The notes below the pieces were generated by a model. That model saw only the letters and a list, made by a program, of their open reading frames with translations, was not told the origin of the DNA and ran no database searches. Shown here one piece after another: positions 54,305-58,483 of a stretch of 64,000 nucleotides of DNA (position 1 is its first letter; each line of letters opens with the position of its first letter). Source of the DNA: Actinoallomurus spadix (lineage in GTDB: Bacteria; Actinomycetota; Actinomycetes; Streptosporangiales; Streptosporangiaceae); assembly GCF_024055725.1 (NCBI RefSeq), contig NZ_JAMXMX010000004.1, positions 124,001 to 188,000 on the forward strand. Direction: 5' to 3'. The position numbers were made by a program, and so were the translations under genes.

Positions 54305-55129
54305 ATGTCGCACCCACTGGCCAAGGTCCACCGCATGTTCGAGCTCGTCGAGCCGATCGCCACCGTCACCTTCTCCGAGGTGCCCAACGAGGCGTTCCTG
54401 GCCCTCGGCATGCGCAACTACTGGGACGGATACTTCGCGGGCCGGGCCGCGCCGCTGGGGCCGGCACCGGCCGAGGTGGTGCACGCGGTCTTCTACAACT
54501 TCGCCGACGGCGAGGTGGCGCGCCACATCCCGTGGGTCTGGGGGAAGATCACCCCGCAGGAGGCGATCGCCGTGCGCGAGCGGGGCAGCGCCGCCGCCCT
54601 GCGGCAGCTGATCGGGGAACTCGCCGACTCCCCCGCTCTGGTGCGGGTCGCCGACCTCGCCACCCGAGCGGGGGTCAGCGCGCCGATCGAGGGCCGAGCG
54701 CTGTACGCCGGGCTCCGGGCGCTTGCGGTGCCCGAGGAGCCGGTGGCCAGGCTCTGGCACGCGGCGACGCTGCTGCGCGAACACCGCGGGGACGGCCACA
54801 ACGCCGCCCTCCTCGCCCACGGCATCGGCGGCACCGAGGCCCACGTCCTCCTCGCTCTCTCCCTCGGAATGAGGCCGGAGGAGTTCGGCCGGATCCACCA
54901 CCTGCCCAGGGCACGGCTGGCCGCCGTCGTCGACGGGCTGCGCGACCGAGGTCTCATGGACGCCGCCGGCGGGTTCACCGACGCCGGCCGGGAGACCAAA
55001 GAGAGGATCGAGGCCCTTACCGACGAACTGGCGGCGCCGGCGTACGACGTGCTCAGCGCGGACGAGCTCGACGAGCTGGCCGCCGGGCTCGAGCCGTTCG
55101 CAGCCGCGGTGAAGGCCGCCGACGACTGA
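54305..55129 (+). CDS. SCO6745-family protein with MarR-like C-terminal region
   Basis: A 274-residue protein. The N-terminal part has the family pattern MRNYWDGYFAGRAAPLG, VVHAVFYNFADGEVARHIPW and ARLWHAATLLREHRGDGHNA (shown in pieces below 20). The C-terminal 100 residues (LLALSLGMRPEEFGRI, LAAVVDGLRDRGLMDAAGGFTDAGRE) read like a winged-helix domain that classifies new and fully replaced states as in MarR proteins, but without a clear DNA-recognition helix. Known as a conserved actinobacterial hypothetical. It is a single gene. Possible role as a heme-free or ligand-binding regulator is only a guess. Confidence 0.7.
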   Translation: MSHPLAKVHRMFELVEPIATVTFSEVPNEAFLALGMRNYWDGYFAGRAAPLGPAPAEVVHAVFYNFADGEVARHIPWVWGKITPQEAIAVRERGSAAALRQLIGELADSPALVRVADLATRAGVSAPIEGRALYAGLRALAVPEEPVARLWHAATLLREHRGDGHNAALLAHGIGGTEAHVLLALSLGMRPEEFGRIHHLPRARLAAVVDGLRDRGLMDAAGGFTDAGRETKERIEALTDELAAPAYDVLSADELDELAAGLEPFAAAVKAADD

Positions 55130-55262
55130 GCGGGCGCATGCGGGCGACGGCCACGACCCGGATGGAGGCCTCAACGTCGAAGTGGCCTTCCACTGACCAT
55201 ACGTTCCCTCACCACCGAACCTCGGCACTCAATGCGGGAACCGCCGGCTTGTCGTGCCTCGG

Positions 55263-56432
55263 TCAGGCCGTCGCAGTTCCTGCGCGCAGGGGCGAAACGA
55301 TCTGTGCTGGATCATCCAGCCAGACCCGCTGGCCGTCCGGCGTGACCGTCAATCCGAAGCGGGTCACGTCCGGCCGGTCCGCTCCGGCCCACCAGCGGTA
55401 GGCGGCTTCGACCTCCTGCCACAGTGCGCGTGGGCCACCCTGCAAGACGTCCCATTCCGTGCAGCAGTCGCACCAGAACACCGCGGCCCAGGAGGCGTCC
55501 GTGAGCCCGTAGACCATCAGCGTCGTGGCGTCGCCGTCGACGCTGACCGTGCGGCGTGCGTCCGGCACGCGCAGGCCGATCGCCCAGTCCGCGGCGAGCA
55601 GCTCGTCACGGGCGATGGCGGTGCTGGACTCGCGGGCGTCGTCCGGCCACACCCCGCCCGGCAGGTACCGCTCTGGGTCGATGCGGTCGCCGCGCTGATC
55701 GCGGAGCTTCATGAACCCGGCGGGCCCGGTGAACCGGCCGATCGCCGCGCCGTCCACGGTGACCGTGAGCTGGGCGATCGCATCTGACTGGGAGTAGGGC
55801 GTGCCCCACGGCGTGACGATCAGCCCGCCGGGGCGGGTCTGGGCGATCCACGCCGCCGGGATCCGCCGGGCGCACGCGGTTGCCAGGACCCGGTCGTACG
55901 GCGCACCGGCCGGCCGGCCGTTCGCGCCGTCGCCGGTGACGACCGTCGGGCGCCACCGGGCGGCCCACAACGCCTTCCGCGCGGCGTGGGCGAGGGCGGC
56001 GTCGACCTCGACCGAGGTGACGCGGTCCGCGCCGAGCCGCGCGGACAGCAGGCCCGCGCACCAGCCCGTGCCGGTCCCGACCTCCAGGACCCGGGCGCCG
56101 TCGACGACGGCCAGGTCCCGGAACATCGAGGCCACCATCGTCGGCATCGAACTGGAGCTGGTCGGCTCCTCCCCCGCGCCGGGCCCGATGTGGTGTCCGT
56201 CGTCCCACTGGGTGACGATCGGGACGTCGCTGTCCGCCCACAGCTGCCACGCGATGGGGTCGGCGTCCCGATCGACCGTGATGTATCCCTCGCCGGTGAG
56301 CGGCCACATCACGGCCGGGAGGAACCGGTCACGTGGGACGGCCTCGAACGCGGCCCGCCAGTCCGGTGTCATCGCGCCGGCGTCGAGCAGCTCTTGGTGA
56401 AGCCGCTGCCGACGCGTGCCGGTGGCGGTCAC
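55263..56432 (-). CDS. PIMT-like methyltransferase coupled to a small peptide gene
   Basis: A 389-residue SAM-dependent methyltransferase of the protein-L-isoaspartate O-methyltransferase fold. After an N-terminal helix region (DWRAAFEAVPRDRFLP) it has VTQWDDG, EEPTSSSSMPTMVASM, SAM motif I VLEVGTGTGWCAGLLSA, VEVDAAL and PYDRVLATACARRIPAAW. The C-terminal extension of about 150 residues ends RFGLTVTPDGQRVWLDDP. From memory this layout matches the methyltransferases of actinobacterial graspetide and lanthipeptide loci, which methylate a peptide Asp to form aspartimide. No ATP-grasp or lanthionine enzyme is nearby. Its GTG start overlaps the stop of a 33-residue peptide gene, which is thus the candidate substrate. 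Confidence 0.83.
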   Translation of the reverse strand: MTATGTRRQRLHQELLDAGAMTPDWRAAFEAVPRDRFLPAVMWPLTGEGYITVDRDADPIAWQLWADSDVPIVTQWDDGHHIGPGAGEEPTSSSSMPTMVASMFRDLAVVDGARVLEVGTGTGWCAGLLSARLGADRVTSVEVDAALAHAARKALWAARWRPTVVTGDGANGRPAGAPYDRVLATACARRIPAAWIAQTRPGGLIVTPWGTPYSQSDAIAQLTVTVDGAAIGRFTGPAGFMKLRDQRGDRIDPERYLPGGVWPDDARESSTAIARDELLAADWAIGLRVPDARRTVSVDGDATTLMVYGLTDASWAAVFWCDCCTEWDVLQGGPRALWQEVEAAYRWWAGADRPDVTRFGLTVTPDGQRVWLDDPAQIVSPLRAGTATA

Positions 56433-56530
56433 TTCTTCGGCTTCGGCGGAGGCGGCGGGGTGCCCTTGCCATCCGGCGTGGGCTGGTCGTTCGGGTGCGG
56501 CGGCGGGTCCGGTCGGGAGTGCTTTCCCAT
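56429..56530 (-). CDS. 33-residue Pro-rich peptide with an Asp-Gly site (candidate methyltransferase substrate)
   Basis: ATG at 56530 follows AGGAAAGGGG by seven bases. The 33-residue product starts MGKHSRPDPPPHPND and continues QPTPDGKGTPPPPPKPKK. Twelve to thirteen residues are Pro; there are three Asp (8, 15, 20), and Asp20-Gly21 is the sequence most prone to aspartimide and isoaspartate formation. There is no Cys, no signal peptide and no helix. The stop TGA overlaps the methyltransferase GTG (GTGA), so both are made from one coupled message. I recognise no family. It may be a modified-peptide precursor or a short partner protein of the methyltransferase. Confidence 0.65.
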   Translation of the reverse strand: MGKHSRPDPPPHPNDQPTPDGKGTPPPPPKPKK

Positions 56531-56578
56531 GCTGGTTCCCCTTTCCTGAGATGAACGGTAATCCGTTGGCCGGAGATT

Positions 56579-56764
56579 TCATCTCCGCGCCGTGCGCCCA
56601 CGTCTGTCGGCCGGCGCGCTCCGCTGAGCGAGGAGCTTCCGCGGCTTAGCGGGATAGCGCGCGACGAGGTCGGCCAGTTCGTCGAGCTTCTGCTCGTACG
56701 TCTCACCGACCGTCGGCGCGTTCAGCGCCTCCATGAGTCCGGCGTACTCTCCTTCGAAACTCAC
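56579..56764 (-). CDS. 61-residue basic protein coupled to the RsbW-like ATPase gene
   Basis: GTG at 56764 overlaps the ATPase stop (GTGA). The product starts MSFEGEYAGLMEALNAPTV, has a predicted helix (ETYEQKLDELADLVARYPA) and a strongly basic C-terminus (KPRKLLAQRSAPADRRGRTARR, quoted to show type). An internal ATG (residue 11) with AAGGAG upstream is an alternative start. No known family. It is the second gene of the four-gene minus-strand operon ATPase - 61-residue protein - Pro-rich peptide - methyltransferase; 48 bases separate it from the peptide gene. Confidence 0.6.
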   Translation of the reverse strand: MSFEGEYAGLMEALNAPTVGETYEQKLDELADLVARYPAKPRKLLAQRSAPADRRGRTARR

Positions 56765-57288
56765 GTCGGAACTCCGATCCGCCGCAGCTCGTCGGCGGTC
56801 AAGGTGACGCCGGGCGCGGCTACGACGACGTGGATGGTCTTGCCGTGCTCGCGGTAGATCGGCCAGCGCGCAGTAGCCGCGCCGTCGATGATGTGCAGAC
56901 CCCGGCCGTTCTCGGCCTCCAGGCCACCCACCGCGGCGGCGGGCAGCGGCCGATGGTCCGGGTCGGTGGCCGCGACGTACACCCAGCGGTTCGTGGCGGC
57001 CACGTCCAGGCGGACCGGCCATGAGTCGTACGGCCAGTCGCGCATGGCGCGGGCCGCGTTGACGGCGTTCGTGAGCAGCTCGGAGACGAGCAGCCGGACC
57101 AGATAGAGGTAATCGTCATCGAGGGTGTACCCGCCGACCACGTCCCGGGCGAACCGGCGACCCTTGGCGACGGAGGCGGGCTCGGCGCGTAGCGCGATCC
57201 ACGACGGCCGGCGTGGGCTGGTCGGCATGACGGGCGTCACGACGGTGGGGGCGGCGCGGTCGGCGATGACCGCTGGATCAGGTGTCAC
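56761..57288 (-). CDS. RsbW/anti-sigma-like ATP-binding protein (HATPase_c_2)
   Basis: A 175-residue single-domain GHKL ATPase. It has the N-box LLVSELLTNAVNAAR, the G1-type EAENGRGLHIIDGAA and the strand pattern of anti-sigma/serine kinase folds, but it lacks some Asp of true RsbW, as do many actinomycete paralogues. Such proteins occur beside WhiJ-type XRE regulators and DUF397 proteins in abaA/whiJ loci of Streptomyces and modulate development or antibiotic production. It is the first gene of the minus-strand operon and stands opposite the XRE gene; a promoter TTGCGA-N17-CATGAT lies 72 bases upstream. Confidence 0.88.
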   Translation of the reverse strand: MTPDPAVIADRAAPTVVTPVMPTSPRRPSWIALRAEPASVAKGRRFARDVVGGYTLDDDYLYLVRLLVSELLTNAVNAARAMRDWPYDSWPVRLDVAATNRWVYVAATDPDHRPLPAAAVGGLEAENGRGLHIIDGAATARWPIYREHGKTIHVVVAAPGVTLTADELRRIGVPT

Positions 57289-57359
57289 AGGGAATCAACT
57301 CCCCTGGTCAGAGGCGCTCGGCTGGCTAGGCCGGGCATGAGCGGCTAGGTACGGGCCTC

Positions 57360-57388
57360 ATCATGCTTGGTAACTATCAAACTCGCAA
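57360..57388 (-). promoter_or_regulatory. Promoter for the ATPase-peptide-methyltransferase operon
   Basis: On the minus strand TTGCGA (57388-57383), 17 bases, CATGAT (57365-57360). The predicted start lies about 65 bases before the ATPase ATG. It sits in the same AT-rich island as the opposing XRE promoter, so binding there could control both. Confidence 0.5.
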
Positions 57389-57397
57389 TACTAATCT

Positions 57398-57426
57398 TTG
57401 ACACTGCGTAGTTAGTTCCCTATGTC
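57398..57426 (+). promoter_or_regulatory. Sigma-70-type promoter of the XRE/DUF5753 regulator
   Basis: TTGACA (57398-57403), a 17-base spacer and TATGTC (57421-57426), close to consensus and rare in this GC-rich window. The in-frame ATG at 57422 falls inside the -10 box, so translation must start further on, supporting ATG 57497. AACTA and TAGTT repeats around it may be an operator. Confidence 0.65.
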
Positions 57427-57496
57427 TGGATCACACGCCGTGATGAAGTCCTCTACGATCGCCTCACCGAGCCGCCCTGACCCTGCGGAGACGCCC

Positions 57497-58342
57497 ATGC
57501 CCGACCGGCAGAGCCCTACTGTGCGCCGACGCCGCCTCTCCCAGCGCCTGCGCCAGCTCCGTGAGGCCGCCGAACTACCGAGCACCGAAGTCGCCAAGCG
57601 ACTGGAATGGTCGCCGGGCAAACTGACCCGCCTCGAGCGGAACGAGGGCAAGCGACCCGACCCGCGTGACGTCCGCGACCTATGCGAGGTTTACGGCGTC
57701 GGTGAGGACGAGCGGAAGCACCTCGAGCAGCTCGCCCGCGACGGTCGCAAGCGCGGCTGGTGGGACCCGTACGACAAGATGCTCCCCGAGGCCACCACGA
57801 CGTTCATCGGCCTGGAAGCGGAGGCCGCCAGCGTCCTGATCTTCGAGCCGCTCACCGTTCCCGGCCTCCTGCAGACGCCGGAGTACGCGGCCGCCATCTT
57901 CCGCGGCGGCGCCGCGACCCTGACCGACGAGCAGGTCCAGGCCCGCATCGACATCCGCACGCGACGCCAGCAGGCCCTGTATGAGGATCCGGCGCTGGAG
58001 GTCATCGCCGTCATCGACGAGGCCGTGCTACGTCGTACGGTCGGCGGCCCGGACGTGATGCGCGCTCAGCTCGAACACCTGCGCCAGGTCGCCCAGCTCC
58101 CGAACGTCACCGTCCAGGTCATCCCATTCGACGCCGGCGCGCACGCGGGCATGTCCAGCTCGTTCAACATCCTGCAGTTCCCCGAGCCCGGCGACCTCGA
58201 CGCCGTGTTCGTCGACCTGGTCGCGGGCGAGATGTTCATCGAGGAGCCCGCGGAGGTGAAGCGGTACCACACGGCCTTCCTGAATCTGGTCGGCGCAGCG
58301 GCAAACCCAACGAATACGCTGAAGATACTCACCGACCGGTGA
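57497..58342 (+). CDS. XRE-family regulator with DUF5753 domain (WhiJ/Scr1 type)
   Basis: A 281-residue DNA-binding protein. The N-terminal helix-turn-helix (about 10-70) is RRRLSQRLRQLREAAELPSTEVAKRLEWSPGKLTRLERNEGK (core STEVAKRLEWSPGKLTRLE). The DUF5753 domain (about 95-270) has GLEAEAASVLIFEPLTVPGLLQTPEYAAA (core EPLTVPGLLQTPEYA), then TRRQQAL, LRRTVGGPDVMRAQLEHL and VQVIPF. ATG 57497 has GGAG seven bases upstream and a promoter ends at 57426. It precedes a DUF397 gene by 27 bases and faces an RsbW-like gene, the standard WhiJ-locus set. Confidence 0.92.
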   Translation: MPDRQSPTVRRRRLSQRLRQLREAAELPSTEVAKRLEWSPGKLTRLERNEGKRPDPRDVRDLCEVYGVGEDERKHLEQLARDGRKRGWWDPYDKMLPEATTTFIGLEAEAASVLIFEPLTVPGLLQTPEYAAAIFRGGAATLTDEQVQARIDIRTRRQQALYEDPALEVIAVIDEAVLRRTVGGPDVMRAQLEHLRQVAQLPNVTVQVIPFDAGAHAGMSSSFNILQFPEPGDLDAVFVDLVAGEMFIEEPAEVKRYHTAFLNLVGAAANPTNTLKILTDR

Positions 58343-58369: not shown

Positions 58370-58483
58370 ATGCCAACGCCCCACGACCTGTCCGACGCCG
58401 CTTGGAGGAAGAGCCGGATCAGCAGCCAGAACGGCGCGTGCGTCGAGGTCGCGACGCTGACCGAGCGCTCCGCCGAGGAGTAG
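58370..58483 (+). CDS. Shortened DUF397 protein (BldB/AbaA-like partner)
   Basis: A 37-residue product from ATG 58370 with AGGAAG upstream. It begins MPTPHDLSDAAWRKSRIS and contains QNGACVEVATL, the first half of the DUF397 pattern (DLS-AWRKS-S--G--CVEVA). Normal members have about 60-70 residues and continue with a VRDSK-D--GP--F---EW segment, which is absent in all frames downstream. It is either a natural short form or a truncated relic. It lies directly after the XRE regulator, its usual partner. Confidence 0.65.
   Translation: MPTPHDLSDAAWRKSRISSQNGACVEVATLTERSAEE

Follow-up and report, generated by a model that had tools for sequence, protein, structure and literature searches.

A short proline-rich peptide gene coupled to a PIMT-like methyltransferase in Actinoallomurus spadix: a probable type I pamtide locus with WhiJ/BldB-type neighbours

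The window, a 64,000-nucleotide stretch of the Actinoallomurus spadix genome, carries on its minus strand a series of four frames (a HATPase_c_2 gene, a 61-residue frame, a 33-residue peptide gene and a methyltransferase gene) of which the first two and the last two each share a GTGA, with an XRE-type regulator and a short DUF397 frame on the opposite strand. Features that are listed here without a named match or alignment were read directly from the sequence:

58370-58483, plus strand: DUF397 (BldB-like) frame of 37 aa (PF04149, 1.3e-6)
57422-58342, plus strand: XRE/DUF5753 regulator, WhiJ-like, divergent (PF19054, 2e-57; HTH_31)
57288-56761, minus strand: HATPase_c_2 protein, AbaA/RsbW-like (PF13581, 3.3e-10, 40.5 bits, cut-off 27.4)
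56764-56579, minus strand: basic frame of 61 aa, in GTGA overlap with the ATPase stop
56530-56429, minus strand: putative precursor peptide of 33 aa
56471..56473, minus strand: codon of Asp20, the residue predicted from its alignment column to be modified
56429..56432, minus strand: GTGA overlap of the peptide TGA with the methyltransferase GTG
56432-55263, minus strand: PIMT-like (PAMT) methyltransferase of 389 aa with a C-terminal extension (PF01135, TIGR04188, tree)

The peptide, MGKHSRPDPPPHPNDQPTPDGKGTPPPPPKPKK, is preceded by an RBS-like AAAGGGGA about 8-14 nt 5' of its ATG, starts with MGKH and ends in a basic KPKK, the charge over its last 12 residues being +4. By count, it holds 13 Pro, 3 Asp and 3 Gly among its 33 residues and no Cys, and its sole Asp-Gly is D20-G21, within PTPDG; a first-pass annotation of this DNA had described just such a Pro-rich, Cys-free chain with a single Asp-Gly, a ribosome site and a stop overlapping the methyltransferase start, and each of these features can be read from the letters. 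Scans of positions 55000-57600 returned no promoter-like and no terminator-like signal. In the methyltransferase, the PCMT domain occupies residues 92-229 (PF01135, 3.6e-26) and is followed by a further 160 residues, bearing out the long C-terminal extension that had been proposed; this C-terminal domain is acidic, with a net charge of -10. Matches to solved structures, 1dl5 among them, were to protein-L-isoaspartate O-methyltransferases and covered the core only, and the catalytic-core columns that are invariant across 13 aligned enzymes are all kept. A predicted structure of the enzyme, built on a two-row alignment, had a mean pLDDT of 32.3 and was set aside. No other RiPP maturation enzyme, ATP-grasp included, was recognised by Pfam in 15 nearby frames, which form part of the frames of the window, agreeing with the earlier statement that neither an ATP-grasp nor a lanthionine enzyme is encoded nearby.

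Of the 345 genomes that represent the order, 328 hold a match to the window enzyme at E ≤0.001, a count that includes distant PIMT-type matches and for which few candidates per genome were scored. As relatives we used 80 fetched loci (L035-L114) and 30 loci from one genus (L116-L145), 110 in total. Because the 80 were picked from match lists, mostly by rank among the matches listed, they are similarity-selected and mutually related; three listed places in the ranked stretch were left out (G126:C262, G241:C49 and G269:C44), and three other places in the window's own genome are included (L071, L095 and L096). A scan of genome contigs for further orthologues returned one locus only, L115 from Streptosporangium violaceochromogenes, which is the same place as L035 and was dropped as a copy, so that close named orthologues are lacking. 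The nearest enzymes are 56-57% identical, and none exceeds about 57% among the matches listed.

Candidate peptides were defined as frames of 22-75 codons that are rich in P/G/D/K/H/E, contain at least one Asp and end at the enzyme start; since an Asp was thus a selection criterion, its mere presence is no result. Such frames precede 91 of the 110 related enzymes, compared with 69 of 943 other frame starts, and when an MGxH-like start is added the figures become 82 of 110 and 20 of 943, the control starts being a mechanical set from the same loci (at least 200 aa, both strands) and not all genes. The short Pro-rich frame that the first-pass annotation expected ahead of PIMT-like homologues is therefore a recurrent feature. 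The 19 loci without a candidate include L140 and L145, where an ATP-grasp gene lies directly upstream, L084 with a partial enzyme, L096 with a distant one, and L123, whose peptide is present but Asp-free. Apparent remnants of precursors were also seen: one is interrupted by an internal stop (L100), two end after nine residues (L065 and L093), and at L079, L086 and L092 only a GGGxHEK-like end is left, in all six cases beside open methyltransferase frames. The pairing is strong and not universal, and the enzyme seems sometimes to outlive its precursor.

A midpoint-rooted tree built by quick search from 110 enzymes, with SH-aLRT support only and L084 left out, places the window enzyme within a set of 31 with support of 100. 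Among its 30 clade relatives, 26 pass the peptide motif test and L068 shows the same start by eye, giving 27 of 30 with a peptide; L072 has a chance-looking frame only, and no peptide precedes the enzymes of L054 and L056. Besides the present pair, the genome of the window carries two more, on contigs C66 (L071) and C14 (L095), three in all. Outside the order, a candidate peptide was found at 8 of 13 loci and none at the other 5.

To follow Asp20, we aligned the window peptide with those of 35 relatives that have a candidate peptide and an enzyme at least 46.5% identical, the doubtful L077 and L089 included. Its column holds Asp in 32 of the 36 aligned peptides, or 31 of the 35 relatives, and in 23 of the 24 aligned clade members (counted by eye; the exception is L058). 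Because the conserved column contains Asp20, the first-pass annotation had chosen the right residue, but its conserved Asp-Gly holds for the Asp alone, the Gly not being obligatory: the next residue may be G, T, S, K, H or others, and in Pro-rich members P-x-P-D comes before G, T, S or K. Beyond the order, PSPDG or PTPDG appears at 4 of the 13 loci (L150, L151, L152 and L155), alongside four other candidate peptides.

The ends of the peptides are conserved in a different way. A GxHEK-like C-terminal end occurs in 56 of the relatives' 91 peptides, where the window peptide has KPKK instead; L064 and L151 likewise keep PxPDG and have no GxHEK. Two Streptosporangium genomes carry several parallel pairs (L035-L044), four in S. 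violaceochromogenes (G315) and five in G310, in which the ends are similar (MGDHEGKP... and ...GKHEKP) and the middle varies; judging from these sequences, a variable core seems to be flanked by recognition ends that stay fixed.

Pairs of this layout have been described as imiditides, the original paper on which is reportedly that of Cao et al. in JACS, 2023. Lee et al. 2023 (PMC10787088) define pamtides as clusters of two genes, one for the precursor and one for a PAMT, that lack the primary enzymes of other RiPP classes; imiditides correspond to type I pamtides, and 1414 pamtides of type I and 125 of type II have been counted (Zhu and Link 2026, PMC13001092). As there described, the type I pairs NmaA-NmaM of Nonomuraea maritima and SpaA-SpaM of Streptomyces sparsogenes share with the window a precursor beside a PIMT homologue with a C-terminal domain, the precursor being linear, Cys-free and rich in Pro, Gly, Asp and Lys, with a conserved Asp and a basic C-terminal end. 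The published type I set averages 17.3% Gly, 16.8% Pro and 10.2% Asp at a length of about 45 (PMC10787088), and the 91 peptides of our relatives come to 17.2% Gly, 16.1% Pro and 10.1% Asp with a mean length of 39. Compared by description, the window peptide is shorter at 33 residues, with more Pro and less Gly, and has no GxHEK-like end.

The 2026 review ascribes to this class charge-based recognition, a DEDGD loop in NmaM, an Asp-His site in NmaA and a WXXXGXP motif, the last being present in most of the enzymes and no defining trait (PMC13001092). Among 31 enzymes inspected, L121, L126 and L137 have a DEDGD loop, and the peptide of L137 contains Asp-His, which links the search to the kind of the founding member, NmaA-NmaM. 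At the WXXXGXP position the window enzyme reads WWAGADRP, keeping W and P and replacing Gly by Asp; this WxxxDxP form is present in 18 of 106 enzymes and WxxxGxP in 87. Four sequence features of type I (an extension of more than 100 aa, an adjacent precursor, a Gly/Pro/Asp-rich chain with a highly conserved Asp near Pro or Gly, and no other RiPP primary enzyme nearby) are found here, the last within the 15 frames scanned. The class also has conserved charged residues at the ends of its precursors, where the window peptide shows MGKH and KPKK but no GxHEK-like end, and its products carry aspartimide or isoAsp as their sole modification. Type II pamtides, or cysimiditides, have the same enzyme type and two-gene layout, but need a Zn-binding CXXCXGXG pair, and the window peptide has no Cys.

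The pair thus very probably encodes a type I pamtide, or imiditide, with the methyltransferase as its sole tailoring enzyme and a chemistry that we assign by analogy; on sequence grounds it is a new example of the published class with small variations. Because the pair recurs and the Asp is conserved among relatives, the sequence tests that the first-pass annotation had set (a short Pro-rich frame before the homologues and a conserved Asp in it) were passed by an ordinary member: the proposed minimal system of one linear substrate and one PIMT homologue agrees with the published pamtides (PMC13001092, PMC10787088), but is not new, given the number of type I pairs already known. Features that speak against a pamtide are the WWAGADRP motif, the lack of a GxHEK-like end, the Gly-poor peptide, the 19 of 110 loci without a peptide and the lack of charge covariation given below.

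By analogy with SpaA-SpaM and NmaA-NmaM, the coupled enzyme probably rewires one aspartate of the peptide. The 33-residue product would serve as a linear precursor that coupled translation brings together with its enzyme, the acidic C-terminal domain holding the basic peptide end; the PIMT homologue would then methylate the Asp20 side chain in a SAM-dependent reaction, and the methyl ester would collapse spontaneously to an aspartimide and hydrolyse largely to isoaspartate. SpaM acting on linear SpaA gave species of +14 and -18 Da (PMC10787088). A simple charge code is opposed by the lack of covariation, across 88 pairs, between the charge of the C-terminal 12 residues of the peptide and that of the enzyme loop (rho 0.11, p 0.31), and whole peptide and C-terminal domain do not covary either (rho -0.17, p 0.11). 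The N-terminal 12 residues gave rho -0.23 with the loop (p 0.03) and -0.25 with the domain (p 0.02), in six tests that are uncorrected and ignore kinship. This comparison omits L084, L096, L140, L144 and L145 and the doubtful peptides of L072, L077, L089 and L118.

We weighed three other explanations. Decay of a pamtide locus, with either the precursor or the enzyme defunct, is unlikely: the C-terminus of the window peptide is unusual, the adjoining DUF397 frame is short and several relatives (e.g., L065, L093 and L100) hold precursor remnants, but both window frames are open, the RBS-like site, MGKH start, PTPDG and basic end are in place, the invariant catalytic-core columns are retained, and PxPDG stands without GxHEK in L064 and L151 too. 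In a second reading, which is very unlikely, the enzyme is of the graspetide type and in reality acts on a cross-linked peptide that is made elsewhere, and the short peptide frame is there incidentally. The best curated family of the window enzyme is TIGR04188 (293.7 bits, 2.3e-87), the methyltransferase family of ATP-grasp (graspetide) systems that it shares with the Group 13 graspetide loci (graspimiditides), and in 2 of the 110 relatives (L140 and L145) the gene directly upstream of the enzyme is an ATP-grasp gene. However, the score lies under the cut-off of 380, as does that of L048 (320.1), which has a pamtide-like peptide; the 15 frames scanned hold no ATP-grasp, unlike Group 13 loci; L140 and L145 fall outside the window's set of 31; and the pairing with a peptide is conserved (82 of 110). 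A general isoaspartate-repair PIMT, with the peptide frame as a leader merely tuning translation, is just as improbable: there is a PCMT domain, and a coupling leader would equally fit the stop-start overlap, but the repair model TIGR00080 gives 77.5 bits against a cut-off of 159.05, the enzyme has its 160-residue extension, and what is conserved in the peptides is residues (the MGxH start and the Asp column) beyond a mere frame.

Apart from its neighbourhood, the locus is one more pamtide example, unusually Pro-rich and 33 residues long. In the first-pass annotation an RsbW-like ATPase and a basic protein of 61 residues lead the pair, and neither stood up as a conserved part of it. Among 342 genomes the 61-aa protein turned up in 4, one of them its own; direct search found relatives of the ATPase at 2 of 80 loci, and an iterated profile found them at 19 of 80, against 4 of 59 random regions. 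The remaining neighbours are the divergent XRE gene, whose match to NCBIfam NF058600 begins at residue 31 so that its true start may be internal, and the 37-aa DUF397 frame, BldB presumably being of the DUF397 type. The PF04149 match of this frame covers only positions 1-25 of 55, and the frame may be truncated.

In Streptomyces venezuelae, bldB paralogues have paralogues of whiJ (XRE) and often of abaA (HATPase_c) as neighbours, abaA and iosA are transcribed much more strongly once BldB is lost, and WhiJ9 activates iosA from a shared intergenic region (PMC10294661). Measured against these whiJ-bldB-abaA loci as there described, the window has an XRE regulator, a HATPase gene and a candidate DUF397-type frame side by side, the first two being divergent neighbours with PF19054 and PF13581 over their cut-offs; it differs in the pamtide pair that follows the HATPase gene and in the shortness of the DUF397 frame. 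WhiJ9-like direct repeats were not found in 57270-57510, where there is one 8-nt direct repeat pair only.

Because DUF5753 and DUF397 genes are so numerous (the window's genome gives 55 and 64 matches, and a set of 25 genomes gives 932 and 1141), the 80 loci were set against a control of 59 random regions, each of 9.1 kb, from contigs of the same genomes. By iterated profile, XRE genes occur at 40 of the 80 loci and in 2 of the 59 control regions (Fisher p 3.7e-10); the corresponding counts are 27 and 1 for DUF397 (p 7e-7), 19 and 4 for HATPase (p 0.01) and 13 and 1 for all three together (p 0.004). These p-values assume independent loci, an assumption that does not hold. XRE and DUF397 stand together at 27 loci, spread over at least 8 genera, and in 1 random region. 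With the window's proteins as sole queries, the counts were 30 and 1 for XRE, 9 and 0 for DUF397 and 2 and 0 for HATPase, and a first neighbour count, built differently, gave XRE at 42, DUF397 at 26, HATPase at 21 and all three at 15 of the 80. Figures are lower in the window's own clade (XRE 11, DUF397 6 and HATPase 5 of 30), and the only two of its members where all three genes occur, L054 and L056, are peptide-less.

Type I pamtide pairs might form a recurrent output arm of WhiJ-BldB-AbaA loci, activated in a WhiJ-like manner and yielding an isoAsp peptide that is developmental and not antibiotic, a proposal that we regard as tentative and rather doubtful. Under it, a WhiJ-like protein would turn on the ATPase-peptide-methyltransferase operon during differentiation, and the isoAsp peptide could be a signal, a timer running on slow aspartimide hydrolysis, or a partner of the ATPase. 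The lower clade figures, the peptide-less L054 and L056 and the lack of WhiJ9-like repeats weaken it. The link of WhiJ/BldB-type genes with pamtide pairs may be unreported: in a literature search that subscription papers mostly lay outside, nothing joined pamtides and WhiJ, and PIMT and DUF397 met only in a paper that places DUF397/DUF5753 genes near graspetide groups 11 and 13 (PMC13097080). The enrichment of such neighbours offers a route toward the function of the class, the linking of these peptides to function being named the bigger challenge in the 2026 review (PMC13001092).

Some smaller observations concern the surroundings of the pairs. At L056 the methyltransferase start is reached straight from a HATPase frame (about -400 to 0 relative to that start), with no peptide between them and XRE and DUF397 genes opposite. 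Just past the window pair, on the plus strand, lie an SCO6745-family protein (54305-55129) and a large subtilase (PF00082, 50791-54024); a role of the subtilase in trimming the peptide is speculative. At L006, around positions 849-1106 and close to a pamtide pair, short translations (PRARGDGP) are repeated, which by eye we take to suggest a CRISPR-like array.
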